Shown: in pieces, positions 1,258 through 62,305 of the stretch
How the letters are laid out: each line of letters begins with the position of its first letter
How positions within the stretch are numbered: position 1 is the first letter of the stretch
Made by a program: the position numbers and the translations under genes
NCBI GenBank assembly: GCA_028583605.1
Contig: CM053326.1
Coordinates: 15,726,587 to 15,790,586, forward strand
Length of the DNA: 64,000 nucleotides
Reading direction: 5' to 3'
Source of the DNA: Dastarcus helophoroides
Lineage: Eukaryota; Arthropoda; Insecta; Coleoptera; Bothrideridae
Notes under the pieces: generated by a model
Told to the model about the DNA's origin: nothing
The model's database searches: none
Seen by the model: only the letters and a program-made list of their open reading frames with translations

Positions 1258-2208
1258 GCAACGGTTTTCAAGATATTTGCCTTCAAAGCTTGCCATAGAT
1301 TTCGAAATAAAAGTAATAAAACTAACTCTAAAATAGTTTATACCAAATATTACTCCACTGACATTATTATTACACAATTTTTTTAAATTTCTAAAGCAAA
1401 TTTAAATAAAATACCAAAACAAAATTTATTTTCAAAAATAAGTATGTGGGAAATGACCTTTTTCATGTAAAGGGATTGTAAACAATTAAAAATATGGCTG
1501 TCTTCTATTAAAATGTATCTCCAAATATCTGCTTGGAGTACCCAGACTATTAAAATTTTCTTGTGCGGACTCAGACATCATATCTCACATCTCTATGTTA
1601 GAAAATAAATTAGGTCTTAATTTTTTGGATTTTCTTTATTGAGATTTTCAAAATTTCGGTAATAATATTATTAGCAAAGTAATATTTGACATAAATTACC
1701 TTCAAAGCTGTCTTATGATTACTTTTTTTTCAAGCCTACTTCGAAAATTTAATATCCTAGTAATTTAAAACCAAGGGATGTCAAGCTTTAAAGGCAAATA
1801 TCTTGGAAACGGTTGCTCGTATCAACTTTCAGGAAGTACACCTTTTTTACATAATAAACATGAGGAAATAAAATAACCCATTTAAAATTAATATACGTGG
1901 GTGCACAAAAAAGTTATGATGATTTAGAATTATGCACGATAGCGCAGGTAGTCCACCTATCATCTATTGAAAATATGTTACCAAATTAGAGTTTGTCGAC
2001 TTAAGAAATCTCCTTGTGCCAAATTTCGTGACTATATTACAATCCGTTCCATAGTTGTACGAAAAAATCGAAATTTTTTTTTCAACTTTGACACCCTGTA
2101 CCTCTGTTAATATCAACTTTTGGTATAAGGTAAATGTAGCTAAATCACATTATTTATATTCGAAAAATCCACCATTAATCTGTGGACCATTACTTATGGT
2201 CCACCCTG
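1258..2208. mobile_element. TA-flanked palindromic element, family A, copy 1 (left end truncated)
   Basis: A segment near 1260-1290 (TCAAGATATTTGCCTTCAAA) reappears in inverted form near 1785-1816, giving inverted arms around an AT-rich centre. The right arm runs on to an end reading CCACCCTG followed by TA at 2209-2210. The same sequence occurs at 17625-18679. No coding potential is visible; the short ORF inside has no recognisable motif. TA flanks and CAGGGTG-type ends suggest a non-autonomous Tc1/mariner-type element, by inference. The left end is missing because the copy abuts the LINE relic. Confidence 0.7.
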
Positions 2209-2690
2209 TATATATAAATTTAATTCATATGCCGAGGTGATAACTTTTTAAAAATATTACTATAGGTTCCCATTTGGGGGCCACTTCGCCATACTTATCC
2301 TACTAGACCCTTTGCTAGGCAAATATGTTTTGACAGGTTTTTTTAATATGCAGCAACTCAAAATACGATTGTTTTCAAAGGAATATACTAAGTTGTTGGT
2401 GAATTTTTAGAAGTCGAGAAGATAAATTCTTACTGAAAAATATTTATGGCGCCACGAAATTAAGTTTCATAAAAATGGTCTGTTCAACAGATATTTTATT
2501 TTTGGAGTAATGTCAGCAACAAATTCATTCAATAAATTTTCAGTACAATCCGTCCCTTAACTCTTACGCTATTAGATTAAAAATTCAAGATTCGTAAGCG
2601 TTACATCTTTTAATGATAATTGAAATGGAAAATACTAGTTGATGATTTTTTTTTAAATTATAAATGAATCCTATTTAAGTGAAGTATGCA
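2209..2690. other. Unassigned AT-rich stretch
   Basis: I see no gene, clear inverted repeat or tandem repeat here. It lies between a palindromic element and a transposase scrap and is probably decayed transposon sequence. Confidence 0.3.
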
Positions 2691-2699
2691 AAAATATTT

Positions 2700-2906
2700 T
2701 GTAAAGAAGATATTGAACCTCATTTGGAAAAGAAACACACAAACGATGATGCGCACGCGTGGCCGCCGCGCTCGCAAGATATAATGCCACTAGACTTCTT
2801 TGGGAAACTATTAAGGAGCAGGTTTTTGCAATCACTTCTGCATGAAAAGACTGTTGCTAGGAACGATCGGATCTGCTTGAAAAGGTTACTCAATTCGAAA
2901 TTTTAA
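2700..2906 (+). pseudogene. Tc1/mariner-type transposase C-terminal scrap
   Basis: The reading frame from 2679 to 2906 contains WPPRSQDIMPLDFF, which resembles the WPxRSPDLxPLDFxLWG block around the third catalytic aspartate of DDE_3-type Tc1/mariner transposases. The proline of SPD is replaced (SQD), but the aspartate is kept. The text before it (HLEKKHTNDDAHA) and after it (KLLRSRFLQSLLHEK) fits poorly, so only about 50 residues of the block are recognisable. No terminal repeats could be paired with it. It is a dead fragment, and the match rests on one short motif. Confidence 0.45.
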
Positions 2907-2950
2907 AATATGCCAGAAAATTGTGCAAATTCCAAAAATGTAATATTATA

Positions 2951-3718
2951 CAAGGTGATTCTAAATGTAGTACCACAGATTTAGATTCGTAATTTAGAGC
3001 CCATAATAAGACAAAAAGTCTATATATAAGTTATGTCTCAAAACTCTTTGTTTCCGAGTTGCAGAGTGTGGAAGGTTAGTTGTTGATTATAGTTTTTAAT
3101 TATTAGTTGCGAAACGTGTACAGGTAACTGAATGAAATTTGGCACAACTCCATACTTTTTCGTGCCCTTTCCAAAAATCTATCAATTAATTTACACAATT
3201 TAACCAGTTTATCTAAGCAAGCGGTGCTTAAAATGTGCTTTATTAATTTTGTGTGCACTTTTGTCGCAAGTTCGTAGCAAAAGTGTAAACTACAAACACG
3301 TTTACATACAAAATGAACTTTTACTGTAATTCGATATTGTCAGCGGTTTTCGAGTAAAATGCATTTTTATATCGCGATGCATTATATACGCTTGCCCAAA
3401 AATATCGCATGCAACAGATAATTGACATTAAAATGAAAAAGTAAAATAAACTAAAATAGAATAAAATAAATAGCAGTGACATTTCCATGTTTTCCTGTCA
3501 CCGGTCGTCACTTTCTGTAAATAAAAGCTGATGTTTTTAAATTTGGTAATTGTTAAATATTTATGAAATATTTTTATTTAAATATTCGTTAAAGTTAAAA
3601 ATAATTTGTTTATGAAGTACATTTTAACTAATAAACGCATCAAAACTTATTTCCTTTCATTTCAAAGCCAACTATGTGTTATATCCGAGATTTTTGGGCA
3701 AACGTTTTTAATGCATTG
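2951..3718. mobile_element. Palindromic element, family B, truncated copy (left arm and centre)
   Basis: It starts after TA with CAAGGTGATTCTAAA, the same terminus as the complete copy at 8529-9695, and follows that copy through the left arm (GTCAGCGGTTTTC near 3340) and the centre up to about 3718 (TTTTTGGGC ... TTTTTAATGCAT). The right arm is absent. A reading frame at 3606-3965 crosses the break and is not considered a gene. Confidence 0.7.
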
Positions 3719-6660: not shown

Positions 6661-6675
6661 CTAAATATATTTTTG

Positions 6676-7500
6676 GAACACCCAAACAGTTTACATTCTT
6701 CCATTAGCTTCACCATGGAAATCGAAAACAACGGTGCTCTTCCTTTTCTTGACTTACTGGTCACCCGTTTACCAAACGGTCGCATCTCTCATTCCATTTA
6801 TTGAAAACCCACACATAATAATCGTTATTTGCTTGCAGAGTCCCATCATCACCATTTTTAAAAACGTTCTGTTATAAATTCACTGGTTTCACGAGCTGTA
6901 CCAATTTCACAGCCGATAAATCTTTCAGACGAATTGAACAAAATTCGTTTTAACTTCCGCAACAATGGTTACAAATCGCACAACATTGAAACGGTATAAA
7001 GGACATCTTCACCTACCCCTCGTCCTTCACAAAATTTAATAGTTTCGTTTAAAGCCTTTCTTCCTTATGTTCACGGAGTAACAGATCAAATCGGAAAATT
7101 ATTGAGAAAACACAACATTAAACCCATTTGTTCATCATCCTCAAAAATCCAACAGCTCCTCCCAAATCCCAAAGATATAATTTTATCCCTTCGTTCTAAT
7201 GGTGTGTACAGGGTTTGTTGTTTCTGTGGTTCAGTGTACATCGGAGAAACGGGGCGATCATTTAAGACGCGAATATTCAAGCACCAAAGATGTCTTAAGT
7301 CTGGTTTATTTTCGCAGTCGGCCATTGCATCAACATAAGACCGAAATAAGATTCTTTTTGATAATATTTCAATTATATCCAATATTCCCAATTACTATAA
7401 TAGGAAGATACGCGAGGTCATTGAAATCCAAAAATTCCCCAAAAACATCAGCAGAGATGACGGTTACATGCTTTTCTCCATCTGGAAATCAACCATCGGA
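6676..7500 (+). pseudogene. Penelope-like element polyprotein: RT C-terminus and GIY-YIG endonuclease
   Basis: Broken frames read in family order. ISFTMEIENNGALPFLD and LVTRLPNGRISHSIY (about 6700-6800) lead to KPTHNNRYLLAESHHHH (6808-6860) and LVSRAVPI (6880-6906), the end of the Penelope RT with its characteristic KPTH and SxHH blocks. A linker (FNSFK, HGVTDQIGKLLRKHNIKP) leads to the GIY-YIG core near 7200-7290 (YRVCC, CGSVYIGETGRSFKTRI, KH). A frame change then gives PNYYNRKIREVIEIQKFP and DDGYMLSSIWKS, the C-terminal part. The family's job is reverse transcription with target cutting by GIY-YIG. Stops near 6804, 6860 and 6995 plus two frame changes show that this copy is dead. The N-terminal RT is missing (5' truncation). 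Confidence 0.85.
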
Positions 7501-7855
7501 AATCTTCGGGAATGATCGCGCAAACGGATGGTATATAAAGTTTCCTCTCAGAAGAGTTTCGCCTCTGGTATGGTGGACCTACTGAGTTACCGTGCTCTTT
7601 TATCTAAACTTTCTTATCCTTTGTACCAGTTTTCAATTCAGAAGAGTTTCGTCTCTGATATGGTGGACATACTGAGTTACCGTGCTCTGAAGTTTTGAAA
7701 TTGGCCTATTTTATTTTTCATTTTTGTTTATTTCTTTGTATTTTATTTTTCATTTATTGTTTCTTTGTTCCCGAAGAAGCCCCCTACAATGGTGGGCGAA
7801 ACGTCGAACACTTTTAGTAATTCTTTGACATGGTCCAATCCCGGAAGAAGTATAT
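7501..7855 (+). mobile_element. Penelope-like element 3' untranslated end
   Basis: A unit starting GAAGAGTTTCGCCTCT at 7551 is repeated about 90 bases later at 7641, each time followed by TGGTGGACMTACTGAGTTAC. The tail runs through a hammerhead-like segment (7766-7810) and ends with CGGAAGAAGTATATC near 7852. The same arrangement recurs at 61991-62305, which shows this is the family's conserved 3' end. Confidence 0.75.
7766..7810 (+). ncRNA. Hammerhead-like motif in Penelope 3' end (core mutated)
   Basis: The order is TGTTC, CCGAAGA, A, GCCCCC-TACAAT-GG-T-GGGC, GAAAC, GTC, GAACA. TGTTC pairs with GAACA as a 5-bp helix I, and GCCCCC pairs with GGTGGGC (one bulged T) as helix II. GAAAC GTC occupies the helix III/cleavage-site position with almost no helix III. 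The conserved CTGANGA box reads CCGAAGA (T4 changed to C) and there is one extra A before helix II, so this copy is probably inactive. Hammerheads with tiny helix III are known in Penelope-like elements. Confidence 0.5.
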
Positions 7856-28909: not shown

Positions 28910-28919
28910 AAAAACATAG
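28910..28919. repeat. Target duplication (left) of the retrozyme, AAAAACATAG
   Basis: The identical 10-mer follows the insertion at 30871-30880. Removing the insertion and one copy restores continuous sequence of the host element. Confidence 0.85.
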
Positions 28920-29002
28920 TTTTGACAAATGACCAATTAAATGTTCTGTAATTAAACAGTTAAACGTGCTTAAAATTGAAAATATGTACAACCGCAACCA
29001 TA

Positions 29003-29033
29003 GACTAGTTTCGGCCTTCCTTGGCCTCGTCAG
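29003..29033 (-). ncRNA. Hammerhead ribozyme core, unit 1
   Basis: On the minus strand: CTGACGA, GGCC-AAGGAA-GGCC (helix II), GAAAC, TA, GTC. All conserved core positions are present. Helix I is formed by flanking ACCATG and TATGGT. Predicted cleavage is after the C of GTC (at 29003). Identical to the other four copies. Confidence 0.85.
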
Positions 29034-29468
29034 CATGGTACGGTGGTTGTACACACTTCCAATTTAAAGCCGTTAGTCAGTCGTATAAGTACCCAAGAGA
29101 GTAAACCTTCATCGGGTGACTTGTAACTGACTTTTAACTGTTTATCACGCAAACATTTTCGCTACATGCTAATTGAAGCATTACTCTCTGCTGAGATAAT
29201 AAGCCTTGTATATACGAATATATACAAGTTTATTACGATGCAATTGAAATCTAATTTCATTAGAATCTAATGAAAATTAGACTGCAATTGCAAAGTTCAC
29301 GAAGGTGAGGCAAAGCTTGTATCACGGGTTGCATCGCAACATCCATAGATACAAACGTCCTCGGCGTGACTTTACTTTCATCTAGTTTTGACAAATGACC
29401 AATTAAATGTTCTGTAATTAAACAGTTAAACGTGCTTAAAATTGAAAATATGTACAACCGCAACCATA

Positions 29469-29499
29469 GACTAGTTTCGGCCTTCCTTGGCCTCGTCAG
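29469..29499 (-). ncRNA. Hammerhead ribozyme core, unit 2
   Basis: Same sequence as the copy 466 bases to the left. Cleavage is predicted after the C at 29469, so RNA between this and the next site would be a 466-nt monomer. Confidence 0.85.
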
Positions 29500-29934
29500 C
29501 ATGGTACGGTGGTTGTACACACTTCCAATTTAAAGCCGTTAGTCAGTCGTATAAGTACCCAAGAGAGTAAACCTCCATCGGGTGACTTGTAACTGACTTT
29601 TAACTGTTTATCACGCAAACATTTTCGCTACATGCTAATTGAAGCATTACTCTCTGCTGAGATAATAAGCCTTGTATATACGAATATATACAAGTTTATT
29701 ACGATGCAATTGAAATCTAATTTCATTAGAATCTAATGAAAATTAGACTGCAATTGCAAAGTTCACGAAGGTGAGGCAAAGCTTGTATCACGGGTTGCAT
29801 CGCAACATCCATAGATACAAACGTCCTCGGCGTGACTTTACTTTCATCTAGTTTTGACAAATGACCAATTAAATGTTCTGTAATTAAACAGTTAAACGTG
29901 CTTAAAATTGAAAATATGTACAACCGCAACCATA

Positions 29935-29965
29935 GACTAGTTTCGGCCTTCCTTGGCCTCGTCAG
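29935..29965 (-). ncRNA. Hammerhead ribozyme core, unit 3
   Basis: The last minus-strand copy before the centre of the inversion. The core is complete (CTGACGA, GGCC/GGCC helix II, GAAA, GTC), and the long outer helix I is also intact to about 30000. Confidence 0.85.
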
Positions 29966-30094
29966 CATGGTACGGTGGTTGTACACACTTCCAATTTAAA
30001 GCCGTTAGTCAGTCGTATAAGTACCCAAGAGAGTAAACCTCCATCGACTGACTACCGGCTTTAAATTGGAAGTGTGTACAACCACCGTACCATG

Positions 30095-30125
30095 CTGACG
30101 AGGCCAAGGAAGGCCGAAACTAGTC
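30095..30125 (+). ncRNA. Hammerhead ribozyme core, unit 4
   Basis: CTGACGA at 30095-30101; helix II GGCC 30102-30105 with GGCC 30112-30115 around AAGGAA; GAAA 30116-30119; C30120 pairs with G30123 and A30119 with U30124 as a 2-bp helix III; cleavage after C30125. Helix I is ACCATG 30089-30094 with TATGGT 30126-30131 (one G-U). After a small internal loop GTACAACC pairs with GGTTGTAC (30135-30142), and the pairing continues with AAATTGGAAGTGT against its near-inverse. The type I topology (open at helix I) and very short helix III are those of Penelope/retrozyme hammerheads. Confidence 0.88.
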
Positions 30126-30560
30126 TATGGTTGCGGTTGTACATATTTTCAATTTTAAGCACGTTTAACTGTTTAATTACAGAACATTTAATTGGTCATT
30201 TGTCAAAACTAGATGAAAGTAAAGTCACGCCGAGGACGTTTGTATCTATGGATGTTGCGATGCAACCCGTGATACAAGCTTTGCCTCACCTTCGTGAACT
30301 TTGCAATTGCAGTCTAATTTTCATTAGATTCTAATGAAATTAGATTTCAATTGCATCGTAATAAACTTGTATATATTCGTATATACAAGGCTTATTATCT
30401 CAGCAGAGAGTAATGCTTCAATTAGCATGTAGCGAAAATGTTTGCGTGATAAACAGTTAAAAGTCAGTTACAAGTCACCCGATGGAGGTTTACTCTCTTG
30501 GGTACTTATACGACTGACTAACGGCTTTAAATTGGAAGTGTGTACAACCACCGTACCATG

Positions 30561-30591
30561 CTGACGAGGCCAAGGAAGGCCGAAACTAGTC
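30561..30591 (+). ncRNA. Hammerhead ribozyme core, unit 5
   Basis: An exact copy of the core 466 bases upstream. 30126-30591 therefore spans one complete self-cleaved monomer. Confidence 0.87.
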
Positions 30592-30870
30592 TATGGTTGC
30601 GGTTGTACATATTTTCAATTTTAAGCACGTTTAACTGTTTAATTACAGAACATTTAATTGGTCATTTGTCAAAACTAGATGAAAGTAAAGTCACGCCGAG
30701 GACGTTTGTATCTATGGATGTTGCGATGCAACCCGTGATACAAGCTTTGCCTCACCTTCGTGAACTTTGCAATTGCAGTCTAATTTTCATTAGATTCTAA
30801 TGAAATTAGATTTCAATTGCATCGTAATAAACTTGTATATATTCGTATATACAAGGCTTATTATCTCAGC

Positions 30871-30880
30871 AAAAACATAG
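30871..30880. repeat. Target duplication (right) of the retrozyme, AAAAACATAG
   Basis: Exact match to 28910-28919. Confidence 0.85.
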
Positions 30881-31060
30881 TTGTTTTAAATATTAAAGAT
30901 TGGATTTTAAGGGGATTTGATCTAAAAAATATGACTGTAGCTATTGTTTTCAGTAATAAAAGTTTATTTCTTAAATTCTTATTACATTTATGTCATAGAA
31001 AATTAATCTTTTTATTTATCAAAACATTGTCTTCAATTTTAATCACTTATCCATCAGTTT

Positions 31061-32218
31061 TTATCTCTTTGATGGTATTTCTTCATCGTTAGATTCAGCA
31101 CACCTTTCCGATTCTACTAGATCTTCGAAGTCTTCAAGACCATCGTCGTCTTCGTCTCCAACATCATTTCTAGTTTGTACCGGTTCTTCATCCACAATTT
31201 CATCTAGATCATTAACTTCCTCGTTTCTTCTACCACATTGGCGCATTTTTCAGAACCATGACAATTTGAACATAAATTTGTACATTTTAAACCATGTTTT
31301 CGGCAGCCACATTTTAAACTATTGCATCCAGTTTCACAGCTGCAGCAAATAGTTTTCAGCAATATGTCTGGAATTAATTCTTTTTCTGTAAATTTGGGCA
31401 TAATGCCCCGTAGATGTTGCTTCCAGCCCCAATCTGTTGTTGTCAGTTCGTTACCCAGCCAAGTTTGAAGCTGATAATATGCCCTGTAACAATGTTGTTC
31501 TGCTGCACCTTCTGTGGGAGGGAGATTTGCCAATATAAAAGACGATTTAATTTTTGCTAATTGATATTTTTGAAATCTTAATTGATTTAGTGTAATATTA
31601 TCATTTTTACATTTATAAATAGATTTCATTAATTGTAATCAATTTTTATGTCTTCTTTGTTTGCATCTTTTTTAAAAAAAATATTAGCCAAATTTGATAA
31701 ATTTTTATCGCCTATTAATGAATTCACGATACTTTTCTTTCCTTTTCCGGCAAATCCAGATGTTGTATCGCAACCAGAAAAACAATGCAGAAATGCAACG
31801 ATGTTTTTGACGGATTCATATTTGAAACTATTAGACGTGAAAAAAAGATCTTTTATATTTCCAGAACCTGGCTTCAGAATATAAATGTCATGATTATTAG
31901 AATTTAATTGATTCAAAAGGACCAAAAGATCAATATCTTGACCCACAACAATGACAATTTTATTAGTATCTCTGGCAATTTCTATCGAGGTCTTAATAAT
32001 GTCAGCATCAGCATCTTCTTTTGCTTGTTTACAGGAAAATCCTTGTGACTGTAATATTTTCATTAGCGATTTTATTATTTTGTCTTTGTTTTTCTCGTTA
32101 GATAAAAATTTTTCTTGCAAAAATGGTATTTTTGTATGGTTTTGATAATTGAACTCTGGAATATTGTCTGAGGTTTTTCTACGACTGCGTTCTCCTCTTT
32201 TAGTTAACTTATTTGGTT
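31061..32218 (-). pseudogene. PIN-like nuclease + CXC-domain protein, C-terminal half, frameshifted
   Basis: The minus-strand frame opens immediately inside the right terminal repeat (NKLTKRGERSRRKTSDN) with no ATG of its own. It runs through EKFLSNEKNKDKI, KEDADADIIKTSIEIA, IVIVVGQDIDLLVLLNQL and FLHCFSGCDTTSGFAGKGK to 31629. The spaced aspartates (DADAD, GQDID, GCDTT) look like the acidic pocket of PIN/FEN-type nucleases. A frame change at 31629 leads to LPPTEGAAEQHCYRAYYQLQ, TWLGN, DWGW, then a Cys-rich block, CCSCETGCNSLKCGCRKHGL and CSNCHG, like the tesmin/TSO1 CXC domain. Another change near 31220 gives an acidic tail (VGDEDDDGLEDFEDLVESE) ending at 31061. Proteins with this order are widespread but uncharacterised in arthropods. 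The N-terminal half is missing, cut at the terminal repeat. Function is inferred from motifs only. Confidence 0.7.
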
Positions 32219-32235
32219 GTTAATTATAGTAGTAT

Positions 32236-37033: not shown

Positions 37034-39036
37034 CAAGGTGATTATTTAAAAACGATCCTCCCTAAATATCTAAAAAACAAAAAATTATGTGCAAAAGGCC
37101 AAAACTGGCCAATTTTGGTTATAAGGGGGACACTTAATTAGAGTAGTTATAAACCTACCCCTTTGGCCGCAGCTACAGTCCCCTCAAATATCTTAGAGGG
37201 AGCAGGGGGTTAAAAAGTTTATTACTTGAAAGGTCCATTCAACCTTTTTTTAGCTATGTAGTAGTTTTTTATTTCTAAGATTATTTTTTGAGAAAACCAA
37301 TTGTTTTGCAGCACAACCCATGTTCATGTTTTTCCTGCACAACACTGTTTTTAAGTGCCTCTTGTTAGTAAAATCAACGTTTGAAATTTCAACTATCAAA
37401 GAGTTAGATGATTTGATGAAACTAATGTTTGAACCACCGTTTGGAGTTTAACTTCAAGTAATCAGTTAAACGTCAATTAATAAGTAAGGATACACACCAT
37501 GAATACTGACAACAAAATATCAATGTCTTTAAAAGTACAGACCCTATCGTTTAAAACAGTTGAATTTTACAAGAGATGCTCGAAATGAGCATCGTTTTGT
37601 TCCAGGTAGTAGCAAATCCGGTTTTCAAATGCTAGTCTCACTTTTTAAAATGTTTTACGTGTAATTGGCCTACATCCATCAACAATTCGTTGTTGTATGT
37701 CCTCCAAATTAGCCAGTTGTGTTTTGTATTTCACTGACTTCAAGTGGCCCCAAAGAGAAAAATCTAAACTTTTCAAGTCTGGTGAGTGTGCTGGCCACTC
37801 AATCGCACCACATCTGCAAATCCAATGGTTCGGCAATCGGTTATTAAGCCAGTTACGAAAGTTTAAGACATAATGTGGTGGAACCCCATCTTGTTGAAAA
37901 AATAACTCATTTTCGTCCAACATTTGATTTCCTTCTAAATCTTTCTGATGCCCTATGCTTATTAAAGGATCTATGATGTTTTCCAACATATTTAAGTAAA
38001 TGTCACCCGTTAGGTTTTAATTATGAATATGGGCCCAATGACAGCATCCCCAAAAATCCCTTTCCAGATATTTAGTTTTTGGGGAGCTTAAGTAATGACC
38101 TTCTGTGACAAAATTGGAGTTCTCATCGCTCCTGTAACGCACGTTGTGTTTATTAACAAAGCCATGTAAAGTAAAGCTGCATTCATCAGTGAATCAGATA
38201 TTTTTTACAAAGTTTGGGTTTGGAGTGACTAAATCCAACATAGTCTCACAAAACTCTATTTGTCTGTCGTAATCATCTTCATCAAGCTCTTGGACAATTT
38301 TCATTTTATAAGAATGGAACTTTTAAATTTTTGTCACTTTACGAACTGATGAATATGAAAGCCCAGTAGCTTCAGCAGTTTGGTGCAAAGCAGTCGTGAG
38401 ATTGGCAGTAATGTCGCCTGTTACCTCAATTTGAGTCATTTCATTTACCAATCTATTACTATGTCTTTTCATCCCATATGTGTGAATTTTTGTTCAAGCT
38501 CTATGACGTATTTGTGACTCAAAACTTATCTGGATGCCTATCATTAAAAGCCCTTGCCGTGACTCTAACACATTTGTTTCAGGAGCCATAAATAAAAATA
38601 ATTTCAACTCTCTCAGCAACTTCGTACACCAATTTAACCCAAACTTGTGCAGATTTACTTTAAAAGTGTATAATTGTCAATGTCAATGCATAAGAAAGTT
38701 TTTATTTCAGAAAATACTTGATAGCAACAGAAAAAGATTTACCTTTTTACCTTGCAAGTTTTATCACAAAAGTGACTTTTTCTTAAAAACTAATTATAGA
38801 AATAAGAAACTAATACATAACCAAAAAGAGGTTCAATGGACCTTTCAAAAAATAAATTTCTGAGGCTCCTGTTCCATATAGATTTTTGAGAGGGTTAAGG
38901 GTCCACCTGCATGTCTAAAACTACATATTAATAAAGTGTCCCCCTCACAGCCAAAATTGACCGGTTTCTGCATTTTGCACATAACGTTTTTGTTTTCTAG
39001 ATATTTGGGATGGTTCGTTTTCAAAAAGTGACCCTG
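37034..39036 (-). mobile_element. Tc1/mariner-type element with long inverted repeats
   Basis: The left CAAGGTGATTATTTAAAAAC and the inverse of the right GTTTTCAAAAAGTGACCCTG ends are flanked by TA. The inverted repeats extend at least 300 bp, through GGGGGACACTT and GAAAGGTCCATTCAACCT to about 37330 and 38750. The 2-kb element contains a decayed minus-strand transposase. Confidence 0.8.
37645..38480 (-). pseudogene. DDE_3-type transposase pseudogene
   Basis: The minus-strand reading starts near 38480 (SNRLVNEMTQIEVTGDIT, ATGLSYSSVRKVTK: N-terminal HTH). It continues KMKIVQELDEDDYDRQIEFC, FTDECSFTLHG (first catalytic D, about 38180), NVRYRSDENSNF and RDFWGCCHW. After stops it enters a clean frame from 37989: MLENIIDPLISI, FFQQDGVPPHY (second D), WPAHSPDLKSLDFSLWGHLK (third D, 37 residues after the second) and a C-terminal QQRIVDGCRPI. 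Stops near 38330, 38200 and 38020 make it non-functional. The N-terminal catalytic blocks are intact in sequence. Confidence 0.82.
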
Positions 39037-47055: not shown

Positions 47056-47437
47056 AGCTAAGGCGGCCAATCGCCCCGCATTCTACGGGGCTGTCCCGGA
47101 ATGGCGGTTACAGTCTCGCATAGAAAAAATTAATAAAATAGTCCCGCAAAACGCCTTATGCGTCCCGGATGTCCCGCATTCTTAAATATTGAATTCATTC
47201 ATAGATTTTTAAATCACTAAATACCAAATCCAACCTATGCCAATCCAGCATAAAAAACGAACGACTAAGCTATGTCACACCGATGAACCGATCGTATTTC
47301 AAAGATATGTTTGGTTTGTTTTTGTTTCCCTCTAAGTTATCAGAAAAATAGAAAGTGAAGACCTTTTTTTTGATCGACGAAAATAAATTACAAATGTTGT
47401 CCCGCATTGCCCTTTTCAATAGTTGGCTGCCTTAGCT
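47056..47437. mobile_element. Candidate 382-bp TIR element
   Basis: AGCTAAGGCGGCCAA at the left pairs with TTGGCTGCCTTAGCT at the right. The subterminal regions share GGGACA/TGTCCC and CCCCGCATT-type words (TGTCCCGCATT occurs three times). No convincing target duplication was found, so the borders are tentative. Confidence 0.45.
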
Positions 47438-47443
47438 AAAACT

Positions 47444-48062
47444 ATCCACAGAACTAAACGTCCCGACTGAACCCAACAACAAAATCGAACGATGGCTCAG
47501 CAAAGAACTAAATGGTAGATATCCAACGAGTCTGAAAGCAGAGCATATAGACGAAAAGGCGCCCCTAGAATGGTTAACCAGAGGATACCTGTTTCCAGAA
47601 ACAGAGGGATTCGCCATTGCCATTCAAGATCAAGTCATCGCCACAGCAAACTACCGCAAATACATAATGAAACAAGCAGCAGTAAACATCAACTGCAGAA
47701 TGTGTGGAAATCAAAATGAAACCATCCACCATTTCATAAGTAAATGTCGAACACTGGCGGCCACGGAGTACACGCAGAGACACAACAATGTAGGAAAAAT
47801 AGTACACCAAGCAATTCGAAGAAAATTCAAACGAGAACATCAAAAGATACCCTATTACAAATACAATCCAGATGCAGTAATAGACCAAGATGAATTTAAA
47901 CTATATTGGAATAGAGATATAATCACAGACGTCACAAAATCTAACAATAGACCAGACGTAGTACTCACAGTAAAACAAACAAGAAGAACATATTTAGTGG
48001 ACTTTTCGGTACCGGTATCTACTAATATCCAAAGAAAATATTCAGGCAAGATAAACAAGTAA
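47444..48062 (+). pseudogene. LINE C-terminus: zinc knuckle and restriction-like endonuclease
   Basis: The frame starting about 47448 reads KIERWLSKELNGRYPTSLKA, PLEWLTRGYLFPETEGF, AIAIQDQVIATANYRKYI, then a knuckle CRMCGNQNETIHHFISKC and CRTL. It continues YYKYNPDAVI, LYWNRDIITDV and NRPDVVLTVKQTRRTYLVDF, ending near 48062. The RPD ... LVDF pair resembles the catalytic aspartates of the PD-(D/E)XK-type endonuclease at the C-terminus of some LINEs. The frame is intact over about 200 codons, but the RT is missing (5' truncation). Its 3' tail ends in (AAT)n at 48367, as expected for such an insertion. I cannot name the clade. Confidence 0.6.
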
Positions 48063-51104: not shown

Positions 51105-51299
51105 GGTCTTTCGGAAATATTGACACCAAGTGAGCAGGGTAGTATTCCTGCCCTTAAAGAAAGGCATATTAAAAACCGTTTTACTCGATTGACTAAAAAA
51201 ATCAAAGCATACCTCACATCGGAAGAACTTGAAGCCCAAAGCACATCCGGCATATTATCTCAACACTCTAGATTTAAGCGATGAAAGACTTTAACTCTG

Positions 51300-52169
51300 A
51301 TGACTCCAAGCAGTCAACAAAATCAACATTTTAAAATTACTTACAAAATTTACTCTCCTACAATGGAATTGCGACGGATTTTATCCTCACTTGAACGTAT
51401 ACAACACCTTGTCTCAGATACCCTACCTGATATCATCTGCTTCCAGGAAACGAATTTTAAAGAAACTCATAAGACTTACCTCAAAAATTATGAGGGTTAT
51501 CACTATTTGAGGACTGAATGTTCGAGAGCTAGAACTTCTATATTTGCATCACACGATCTATTTGCTCAAAAATTTCCGATAACAACAACCTTAGAAGCAG
51601 TAGCCATCAATGTCTGGTGTCCACAGAGGATTACAGTATGTAACGCATATATATCACCGAAATATATTCTAACAGAAGCTCATATCTATGAACTTGTAGA
51701 CCAGTTACCAACCCCGTTCATCCTTGTCGGTGACTTCAATGCTCACAAAGTGATCTGGGGATCCGAATACTCATTTGGACGAGGAAAAATGATCGAAAAT
51801 ACAATAAATAACACCAATTTAAGTCTTCTAAATACTGGATGCAGCACACACTTTAATATACATACGGGACCACTCTCATCTATTGATCTTAGCTTTTGCG
51901 ATCCAAGGACATTTGCATTAATAAGATGGCGCACCTTAAACAGTCTATACGATAGTGATCACTACCCCATAATTATTTCAGATAATGCATTTAAGCCTGC
52001 AGACTCTGTTACCAAATGGAGAATAAGGCAAGCACATTGGAACGGTTTTAGTTCGTATATAGAGTCACAAACTGATATACTTCGATTTTCTGATGATATC
52101 GACCAAGTTACAAACCAATTTATCAACTGTATCGTTTCGTCAGCAGAAAAAATATATTGGAAGGCATGA
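51300..52169 (+). pseudogene. I-like LINE ORF2, APE-type endonuclease part
   Basis: The 289-codon frame reads KIYSPTMELRRILSSLERI, LPDIICFQETNFKE (catalytic E), ISPKYILTEAHIYEL, FILVGDFNAHKVIWGS (D and N; 51729-51746), LSSIDLSFCDP and YDSDHYPI (catalytic D and H). That is the complete set of APE endonuclease motifs for nicking target DNA. The natural start is unclear: the usual N-terminal QWN motif is altered (YSPTMEL precedes it) and the leading residues may not be authentic. The frame closes at 52169 and RT continues in other frames downstream. Confidence 0.82.
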
Positions 52170-61990: not shown

Positions 61991-62305
61991 CGGAAGAGTT
62001 TCGCCTCTGATATGGTGGATATACTGAGTTACCGTGCTCTTCTGTATAAACTTTCTTATCCCTTGTACCAAATTTTCAATTCAGCAGAGTTTCGCCTCTG
62101 GTATGGTGGACATACTGAGTTATCGTACTCTGATGTTTTGAAATTGGCCTTTTCATTTTTATTTTTGTATATTTCCTTGTATTTTATTCCTCATTTATTG
62201 TTTCTTTGCTCCTGAAGAAGCCCCCTACGATGGTGGGACGAAACGTCGAACACTTTTAGTAGTTCTTTGACACGGTCCAATCCCGGAAGAAGTATATCGT
62301 GTCAG
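61991..62305 (+). mobile_element. Penelope-like element 3' end, second copy
   Basis: This repeats the arrangement at 7545-7855: two units starting GAAGAGTTTCGCCTCT / GCAGAGTTTCGCCTCT about 91 bases apart (61993 and 62084), a T-rich spacer, a hammerhead-like segment and the tail CGGAAGAAGTATATC. No protein-coding part remains. Confidence 0.75.
62206..62252 (+). ncRNA. Hammerhead-like motif in Penelope 3' end (core intact)
   Basis: TGCTC, CTGAAGA (62212-62218), A, GCCCCC-TACGAT-GG-T-GGGA, C, GAAAC (62240-62244), GTC, GAACA. The CTGANGA and GAAA boxes are intact here. Helix I (TGCTC with GAACA) has one mismatch and helix II has one bulge and one unpaired A on each side. Helix III would be only A-U and C-G with no loop, a form that in other Penelope hammerheads is expected to act as a dimer. 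Activity is uncertain. Confidence 0.5.

Follow-up and report, generated by a model that had tools for sequence, protein, structure and literature searches.

Retrozymes have been described in animals, and their circular RNA has been shown in a coral, a mussel and the axolotl (PMC7229834). That report regards Penelope-like elements (PLEs) as a strong candidate for their mobilisation and also names LINEs. According to the text of a review, retrozyme repeats are without a motif that would reveal the mobilising enzyme (PMC7761336). The PLE enzyme characterised in PMC11167929 cuts and extends both strands and starts internally at two adjacent sites; as described there, no start-site difference was seen between the strands, ribozyme activity is not needed in vitro and unprocessed RNA is used. 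In a rotifer, PLE copies were found head to head, with a tail on one end and duplications of 8-10 bp, and self-priming was proposed (PMC3846280). The 15-bp duplications of Nematostella repeats have been likened to those of LINEs (PMC4918200).

Here we analyse an element in a window of 64,000 nucleotides from the beetle Dastarcus helophoroides, together with its copies elsewhere in the genome. The DNA anatomy supports its classification as an animal retrozyme: it is dispersed, multi-copy and non-coding, and it consists of tandem hammerhead units with target duplications. The original prediction had made the same classification; what it missed was the telling feature, the two different fixed outer ends of the back-to-back copies, and their match to PLEs.

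The element and its hammerhead unit

The element lies at positions 28922-30870 and consists of two back-to-back arrays of a 466-bp unit (Table 1). The arrays are inverted, and their arms at 29189-30015 and 30045-30871 are 100% complementary across 827 nt. Inside each array the unit spacing is exactly 466, and the units are 99-100% alike. The core CTGACGAGGCCAAGGAAGGCCGAAAC occurs five times in identical form. A loose core pattern matched the window eight times compared with 0.59 expected, and none of 100 shuffles reached eight. The original prediction of five identical cores at exact 466 spacing in near-identical units is therefore borne out. Its mention of "each array" implied two arrays, but their inversion was neither stated nor used, and the flanking duplication that it gave as 10 bp is 12 bp long, with those ten bases inside it. 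Unit positions (u) are numbered from the first base past the predicted cut (u1 = 30126). In its shortest reading, the outer end of the left arm is u81 at 28922; the exact match extends to u86 at 28917, within the duplication. The G+C content of the unit is 37.6%, and the longest open frame on the circularised unit has 89 codons. An RNA reading across the junction through 28922-30870 would form a hairpin of more than 800 bp, from which small RNAs might arise.

Table 1. Features of the element, in window positions
Feature	Position	Strand	Evidence
Target site duplication, left copy, AAAAACATAGTT, 12 bp	28910..28921		sequence match
Left arm, ~2.4 laps, antisense on the + strand; outer end at putative start site A	28922..30053	-	
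Hammerhead core 1; predicted cut 29003/29002	29008..29033	-	pattern
Hammerhead core 2; predicted cut 29469/29468	29474..29499	-	pattern
Hammerhead core 3; predicted cut 29935/29934	29940..29965	-	pattern
Arm junction, 9 bases CGACTGACT compatible with either arm	30045..30053		
Right arm, ~1.8 laps, sense; outer end at putative start site B (u279-280)	30045..30870	+	
Hammerhead ribozyme region; core 30095-30120, predicted cut 30125/30126, stem III ACUAGU 30119-30124	30077..30147	+	Rfam HH9, 22.5 bits (below gathering score 52); core pattern
Predicted hairpin u71-91, loop with putative start site A (u77-84 = 30202-30209); recurs one lap on at 30662-30682	30196..30216	+	folds, copy ends
Predicted hairpin u273-284, loop AGCA with putative start site B (u277-280 = 30402-30405)	30398..30409	+	folds, copy ends
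Hammerhead core 5; predicted cut 30591/30592	30561..30586	+	pattern
Target site duplication, right copy, AAAAACATAGTT	30871..30882		sequence match

Each unit carries a type I hammerhead, recognised by pattern and by eye. In it, the core CUGACGA is accompanied by a GGCC/GGCC stem II, the GAAA and an internal loop in stem I; stem I is the open helix, i.e. the hammerhead is of type I. A full hammerhead had been predicted. Core, stem I and stem II are present as claimed, but stem III has only two pairs and a 2-nt loop, in the palindrome ACUAGU, which could pair between two units. The Rfam scan likewise gave no family at its gathering score, and its sole hammerhead match, HH9, stayed below threshold (E 0.016). 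Two further Rfam matches, mir-203 and mir-3851, span the inverted junction and are accounted for by the repeat arms. A search with the pattern CTGATGA had no match, since the actual core is CTGACGA. Among the copies read out, the core is intact in 123 of the 131 units spanning it, and it is not better conserved than the rest of the unit (10/2413 bases vs 211/47508).

The unit is predicted to be highly structured. Its circular fold has an energy of -169.1 kcal/mol, compared with -100.0 kcal/mol (sd 5.6) for 100 dinucleotide shuffles (z -12.3), and 74% of its bases are paired; the antisense circle folds at -140.8 kcal/mol. Positions u80 and u277, where the copies end, are both located in predicted hairpin loops, which make up 38 of the 466 bases. 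Closeness of the two loops in the fold was rejected as evidence, their graph distance of 27 being met by 31% of all position pairs and by 14% of equally spaced pairs.

Several other features are found in the window. LINE-type fragments at 179-1228, 47436-48062 and 51285-52169 (+) contain RNase H, zf-RVT (below cut-off) and endonuclease domains. Two frames of one protein (LHCFSGCDTTSGFAGKGKKS) at 31204-32219 (-) adjoin the element and have no Pfam match. By eye, a frame at 37645-38016 (-) resembles the end of a mariner-type transposase (WPAHSPDLKSLDFSLWGHLK), also with no Pfam match. A decayed PLE fragment at 6664-7338 (+) includes a GIY-YIG-like stretch GVYRVCCFCGSVYIGETGRSFKTRIFKH; Pfam gave no RT or GIY-YIG match for this fragment. 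Behind it, at 7773-7812, lies a stretch that looks hammerhead-like by eye and ends in GGGCGAAACGTCG. It is resembled by a hammerhead-like stretch of another type at 62212-62248 (+), CTGAAGAAGCCCCCTACGATGGTGGGACGAAACGTCG. No tRNA gene was found in the window.

Copies in the genome and their ends

The genome searched comprises 539 Mb. The core pattern occurs 589 times in it (300 + 289), and the reversed pattern, used as a control, does not occur. A DNA search, in which the best 40 of 1711 candidate places were scored, returned at least 186 matches clustered into 40 places on 11 contigs; 39 of these places and the window's own element form our first set of 40 copies. Among 100 listed pattern places, all on contig C1, 13 loci with cores on both strands were identified by eye, and all 13 run minus then plus. 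The eight of these remaining outside the first set, together with the first eight single-core places new to the sample, form a held-out set of 16 copies on the same contig. The genome thus contains dispersed copies with duplications, as expected from the original prediction, and not only long satellite arrays without them. Two arms are present in 38 of the 56 copies read out (28/40 in the first set and 10/16 in the held-out set), always antisense on the left and sense on the right.

The outer ends of the two-armed copies fall at two fixed positions. One end near u80 (A) and one near u277 (B) are found in 37 of the 38, and A+A or B+B in none. In the first set, 27 of 28 copies have A+B. Exact matching placed the ends of 26 of them at u72-86 and u275-284; the right end of L037, missed by the exact-end script, was identified as B (u277) by BLAST. 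The 28th copy, L023, combines B with an odd end at u453. All ten held-out two-armed copies have A+B, with BLAST ends at u75-89 and u277-293, the longest of which extend into the duplication. The left arm ends in B in 17 and in A in 9 of 26 two-ended elements. One-armed copies end in A in 10 of the 12 cases in the first set, the other two being one B and one copy without anchor (L032), and in all six held-out cases. No poly(A) was seen at the ends of the copies as read out. Both u80 and u277 are the A of a UCA, a motif spotted post hoc in a unit that has 11 UCA and in which 11.8% of positions lie at most 2 nt from such an A.

Target duplications of 10-17 nt (median 13) were detected by script in 25 of the 26 two-ended elements. 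For the remaining one, L041, a separate reading found 12 nt. Eight of the 18 one-armed copies have a duplication of at least 8 nt beside their ends. The overlap between duplications and RNA-derived sequence averages 2.04 nt (50 ends), compared with 0.39 nt for random flanking DNA, a difference somewhat inflated by the choice of the longest duplication. For four of the 25 elements tested within the retrieved sequence (L013, L014, L018 and L026), an insert-free site is present in another copy of the surrounding repeat, the match for L013 being weak (~75%); in the same retrieved sequence, queries for L011, L030 and L042 matched their own loci only.

The inner ends are consistent with a uniform distribution across the unit (n = 56, KS p 0.43), with no accumulation at the predicted ribozyme cut, within 5 nt of which one of them falls. 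Inner ends of paired arms are 35-232 nt apart in 25 of 28 elements; the other three, L014, L017 and L027, are turn-backs. At the 28 junctions, the arms share 0-3 nt in 13 cases and 7-54 nt in 9, and 6 junctions have inserts of 1-6 nt. Arm lengths range from 0.2 to 4.5 laps, with a maximum of 4.47 in one arm.

Sequence variants provided insights into the template. At eight diagnostic sites, agreement was 594/615 within an arm and 614/626 between the arms of an element, compared with 33976/51411 between elements. At sites with at least three copies per element, non-consensus variants were present in all copies in 52 cases, in one copy in 79, in all but one in 5 and in an intermediate number in 9. 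That a variant tends to occupy either every lap of both arms or just one unit suggests that one template was copied repeatedly from both target strands. The original prediction had explained the near-identity of the units by recent insertion or ongoing homogenisation; our data favour a further cause, the copying of all laps of both arms from one template. Eight of the nine intermediate variants belong to L041 (1374-3222). In no other two-armed copy do several linked sites switch from one haplotype to the other between laps, which looks like a change of template by the enzyme.

Penelope-like elements and the proposed route of insertion

Adjoining copy L036 is a PLE with a frame that matches both RVT_1 and GIY-YIG; the beetles Aromia moschata and Tribolium castaneum are among its named relatives. 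Within 1330-3273 of this locus, the one-armed retrozyme copy (1527-2142) is located between the end of the PLE frame (minus, down to ~2143) and the repeat of that PLE, which has its own hammerhead CTGAAGATGACAGCTTGGCTGTCGAAACGCGT. A search of the genome with the PLE protein scored 107 matches of 5949 candidates, and among these 15 places with minus-then-plus pairs were found by eye. Ten pairs were read. In nine, a short outer end at 28-33 of the reference (GUUUCAA...) is paired with a long one at 66 (CCAUCAAA), the latter being the tail. By script, duplications of 11-18 nt flank eight of the nine; in the ninth, L064/L065, a duplication of only 5 nt was found and an A run blurs the end. Both ends are long in the tenth pair, L068/L069, which lacks a duplication. 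In the tandem PLE copy L071, the start-codon A is 27 nt away from the predicted ribozyme cut; the value reported for an Anolis PLE is 26 bp. Of the two putative starts in L071, the one 63 nt past the cut, at UUUCAA, adjoins a predicted hairpin loop, and the one 101 nt past it, at AUCAAA, lies within such a loop; each placement holds in 6 of 7 fold lengths. By eye, the loop at the long PLE start, UCAAACUU, resembles retrozyme loop A, UCAAAACU. The similarity between the unit and the PLE end is at chance level, with a best score of 24 that 26 of 200 shuffles also reached.

Combining these data, we consider it likely that the element is a non-autonomous animal retrozyme inserted by an endonuclease-bearing PLE machinery, with priming from the two strands of the target on a single RNA circle. 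Transcripts of the outward-pointing arms would be cut by their hammerheads into 466-nt units, which would then be closed into circles. A PLE ribonucleoprotein would make a staggered cut in the target, which would give the observed duplications of ~12-13 bp. Both 3' ends would then serve as primers on a shared circle, where one would start reverse transcription at hairpin loop A (u~80) and the other at hairpin loop B (u~277); the end positions and the overlaps suggest priming with ~2 nt of pairing. Each polymerase would circle 0.2 to 4.5 times, as read from the arm lengths, and stop anywhere, and the two cDNA ends would be joined in the middle of the element, resulting in two outward-pointing arrays. 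When one strand alone is extended, a one-armed copy would form, nearly always from A.

We lean towards a more specific form of this route, in which one RNA circle would serve as a template with two handles. Its two dedicated hairpin loops, one per cut target strand, would each be bound by one of the two reverse transcriptases in a PLE dimer; both enzymes would run round that circle, and the cDNAs would then be joined mid-element. PLEs would apply this two-loop rule to their own RNA as well. Their tail and head-to-head copies would then be one and the same footprint, that of two-site, two-strand priming, which retrozymes would imitate with hairpins alone.

The A+B rule, with ten of its 37 copies at held-out loci, argues for the PLE route. 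So do the PLE pairs of the same genome, which are also back to back, have a short and a long end in 9 of 10 and start at UCA in or beside predicted loops, and the published PLE enzyme, with its cutting and extension of both strands and its two internal starts (PMC11167929). The evenly spread inner ends, the agreement of variants between arms, the duplications with four insert-free sites and the placement of A and B in predicted loops also favour it. As reported, however, that enzyme showed no start-site difference between the strands and no need for ribozyme activity in vitro, so strand-specific starts are not predicted by it alone, which counts against the route. Further points against it are the chance-level similarity of unit and PLE end, the post hoc choice of the UCA motif and a core conserved no better than the rest of the unit. 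Exceptions to the two-end rule are the odd end of L023 and the two long ends of the PLE pair L068/L069, and L041 departs from the single-template pattern with its two haplotypes.

The PLE machinery could also have used an uncut linear multimer from an older homogeneous array instead of a circle, which we regard as unlikely. Older arrays are homogeneous and would give uniform laps too, and the published enzyme takes unprocessed RNA in vitro (PMC11167929). If one circle was instead copied many times from either side, the observed variant pattern is what would be expected: variants present in some but not all laps are rare (9/145, eight of them in L041). In addition, single arms of up to 4.47 laps cross the cut site, and nearly all cores are intact (123/131). 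The linear multimer is therefore less well supported than one circle.

An inverted copy could also result from twin priming by LINE machinery, when the second target strand anneals inside the RNA. In twin priming, the second strand starts at variable internal places, whereas both starts are fixed in our copies; moreover, the outer ends are inside predicted hairpin loops and show no poly(A) as read out. We consider twin priming very unlikely, although LINE-type frames are present in the window, LINEs are named beside PLEs as candidates (PMC7229834) and the 15-bp Nematostella duplications were compared with LINE ones (PMC4918200). Alternatively, one target-primed cDNA could fold back by self-priming or template switching, and its copy would become the second arm, as proposed for head-to-head PLE copies (PMC3846280). 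The three true turn-backs and the 9 of 28 junctions that share 7-54 nt fit such an event, but the gap of 35-232 nt between the inner ends in 25 of 28 elements does not, and a fold-back does not explain why a second outer end should be fixed and always unlike the first. It is already contradicted for most copies, and we regard it as highly improbable. Long palindromes are hard to assemble and satellites can carry hammerheads, so an inverted satellite array or an assembly artefact was also considered. Its probability is negligible in view of 56 places with different flanks, duplications and junctions, uninterrupted sites for four elements, and outer ends that are fixed while the inner ends are evenly spread.

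If the two-start PLE route is correct, the enzyme class and the two places on the RNA circle where it starts could be read from the copies in one genome, and a joint explanation would be at hand for two traits of PLEs, their inverted copies and their optional tail. The rule of one outer end of each kind can be checked in any retrozyme-bearing genome.

Comparison with known systems

Mobilisation of retrozymes by PLEs is already a published suggestion, and the new part is the two-start anatomy, which was not found in the main texts of the open-licence literature searched. The element shares with animal (non-LTR) retrozymes, as described in PMC7229834, units in tandem that each bear a type I hammerhead, a low G+C content (below 45-50%), a strongly self-paired non-coding unit, duplications longer than 4 bp and, probably, the lack of LTR-type signals. 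Its unit of 466 nt is slightly above the range given there (RNAs of ~170-400 nt, repeats of 150-450 bp). It differs in its back-to-back arms, whose outer ends are fixed at two positions; the word "inverted" is absent from the main text of that report. The hammerhead repeats of newt and axolotl are similar in having a very short stem III with a palindromic loop, for which cleavage may need two units, and the palindrome here is ACUAGU. Those repeats are described in PMC7229834 as satellite-like tandem repeats, and two arms are unmentioned in that description.

Plant LTR retrozymes are also non-autonomous and hammerhead-flanked and have a circular RNA intermediate, which is presumed for our element. 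As described in PMC4918200, they have a type III hammerhead, LTRs, a tRNA primer site, a polypurine tract and 4-bp duplications, none of which seems to fit here, and the type I hammerhead and the 12-bp duplication rule out this identity.

Penelope/Poseidon-type PLEs resemble the element in their head-to-head copies, duplications, minimal type I hammerhead and internal starts at stem-loops (PMC11167929, PMC3846280). PLEs code for an RT and a GIY-YIG endonuclease, whereas the longest frame of the unit has 89 codons; the element is therefore non-autonomous and not itself a PLE. The two putative starts are 197 nt apart on the unit circle, compared with ~38 nt in the PLE of the same genome. The tail at one of the two outer ends, a PLE feature in the account of PMC3846280, can be likened to the two end types of our element.
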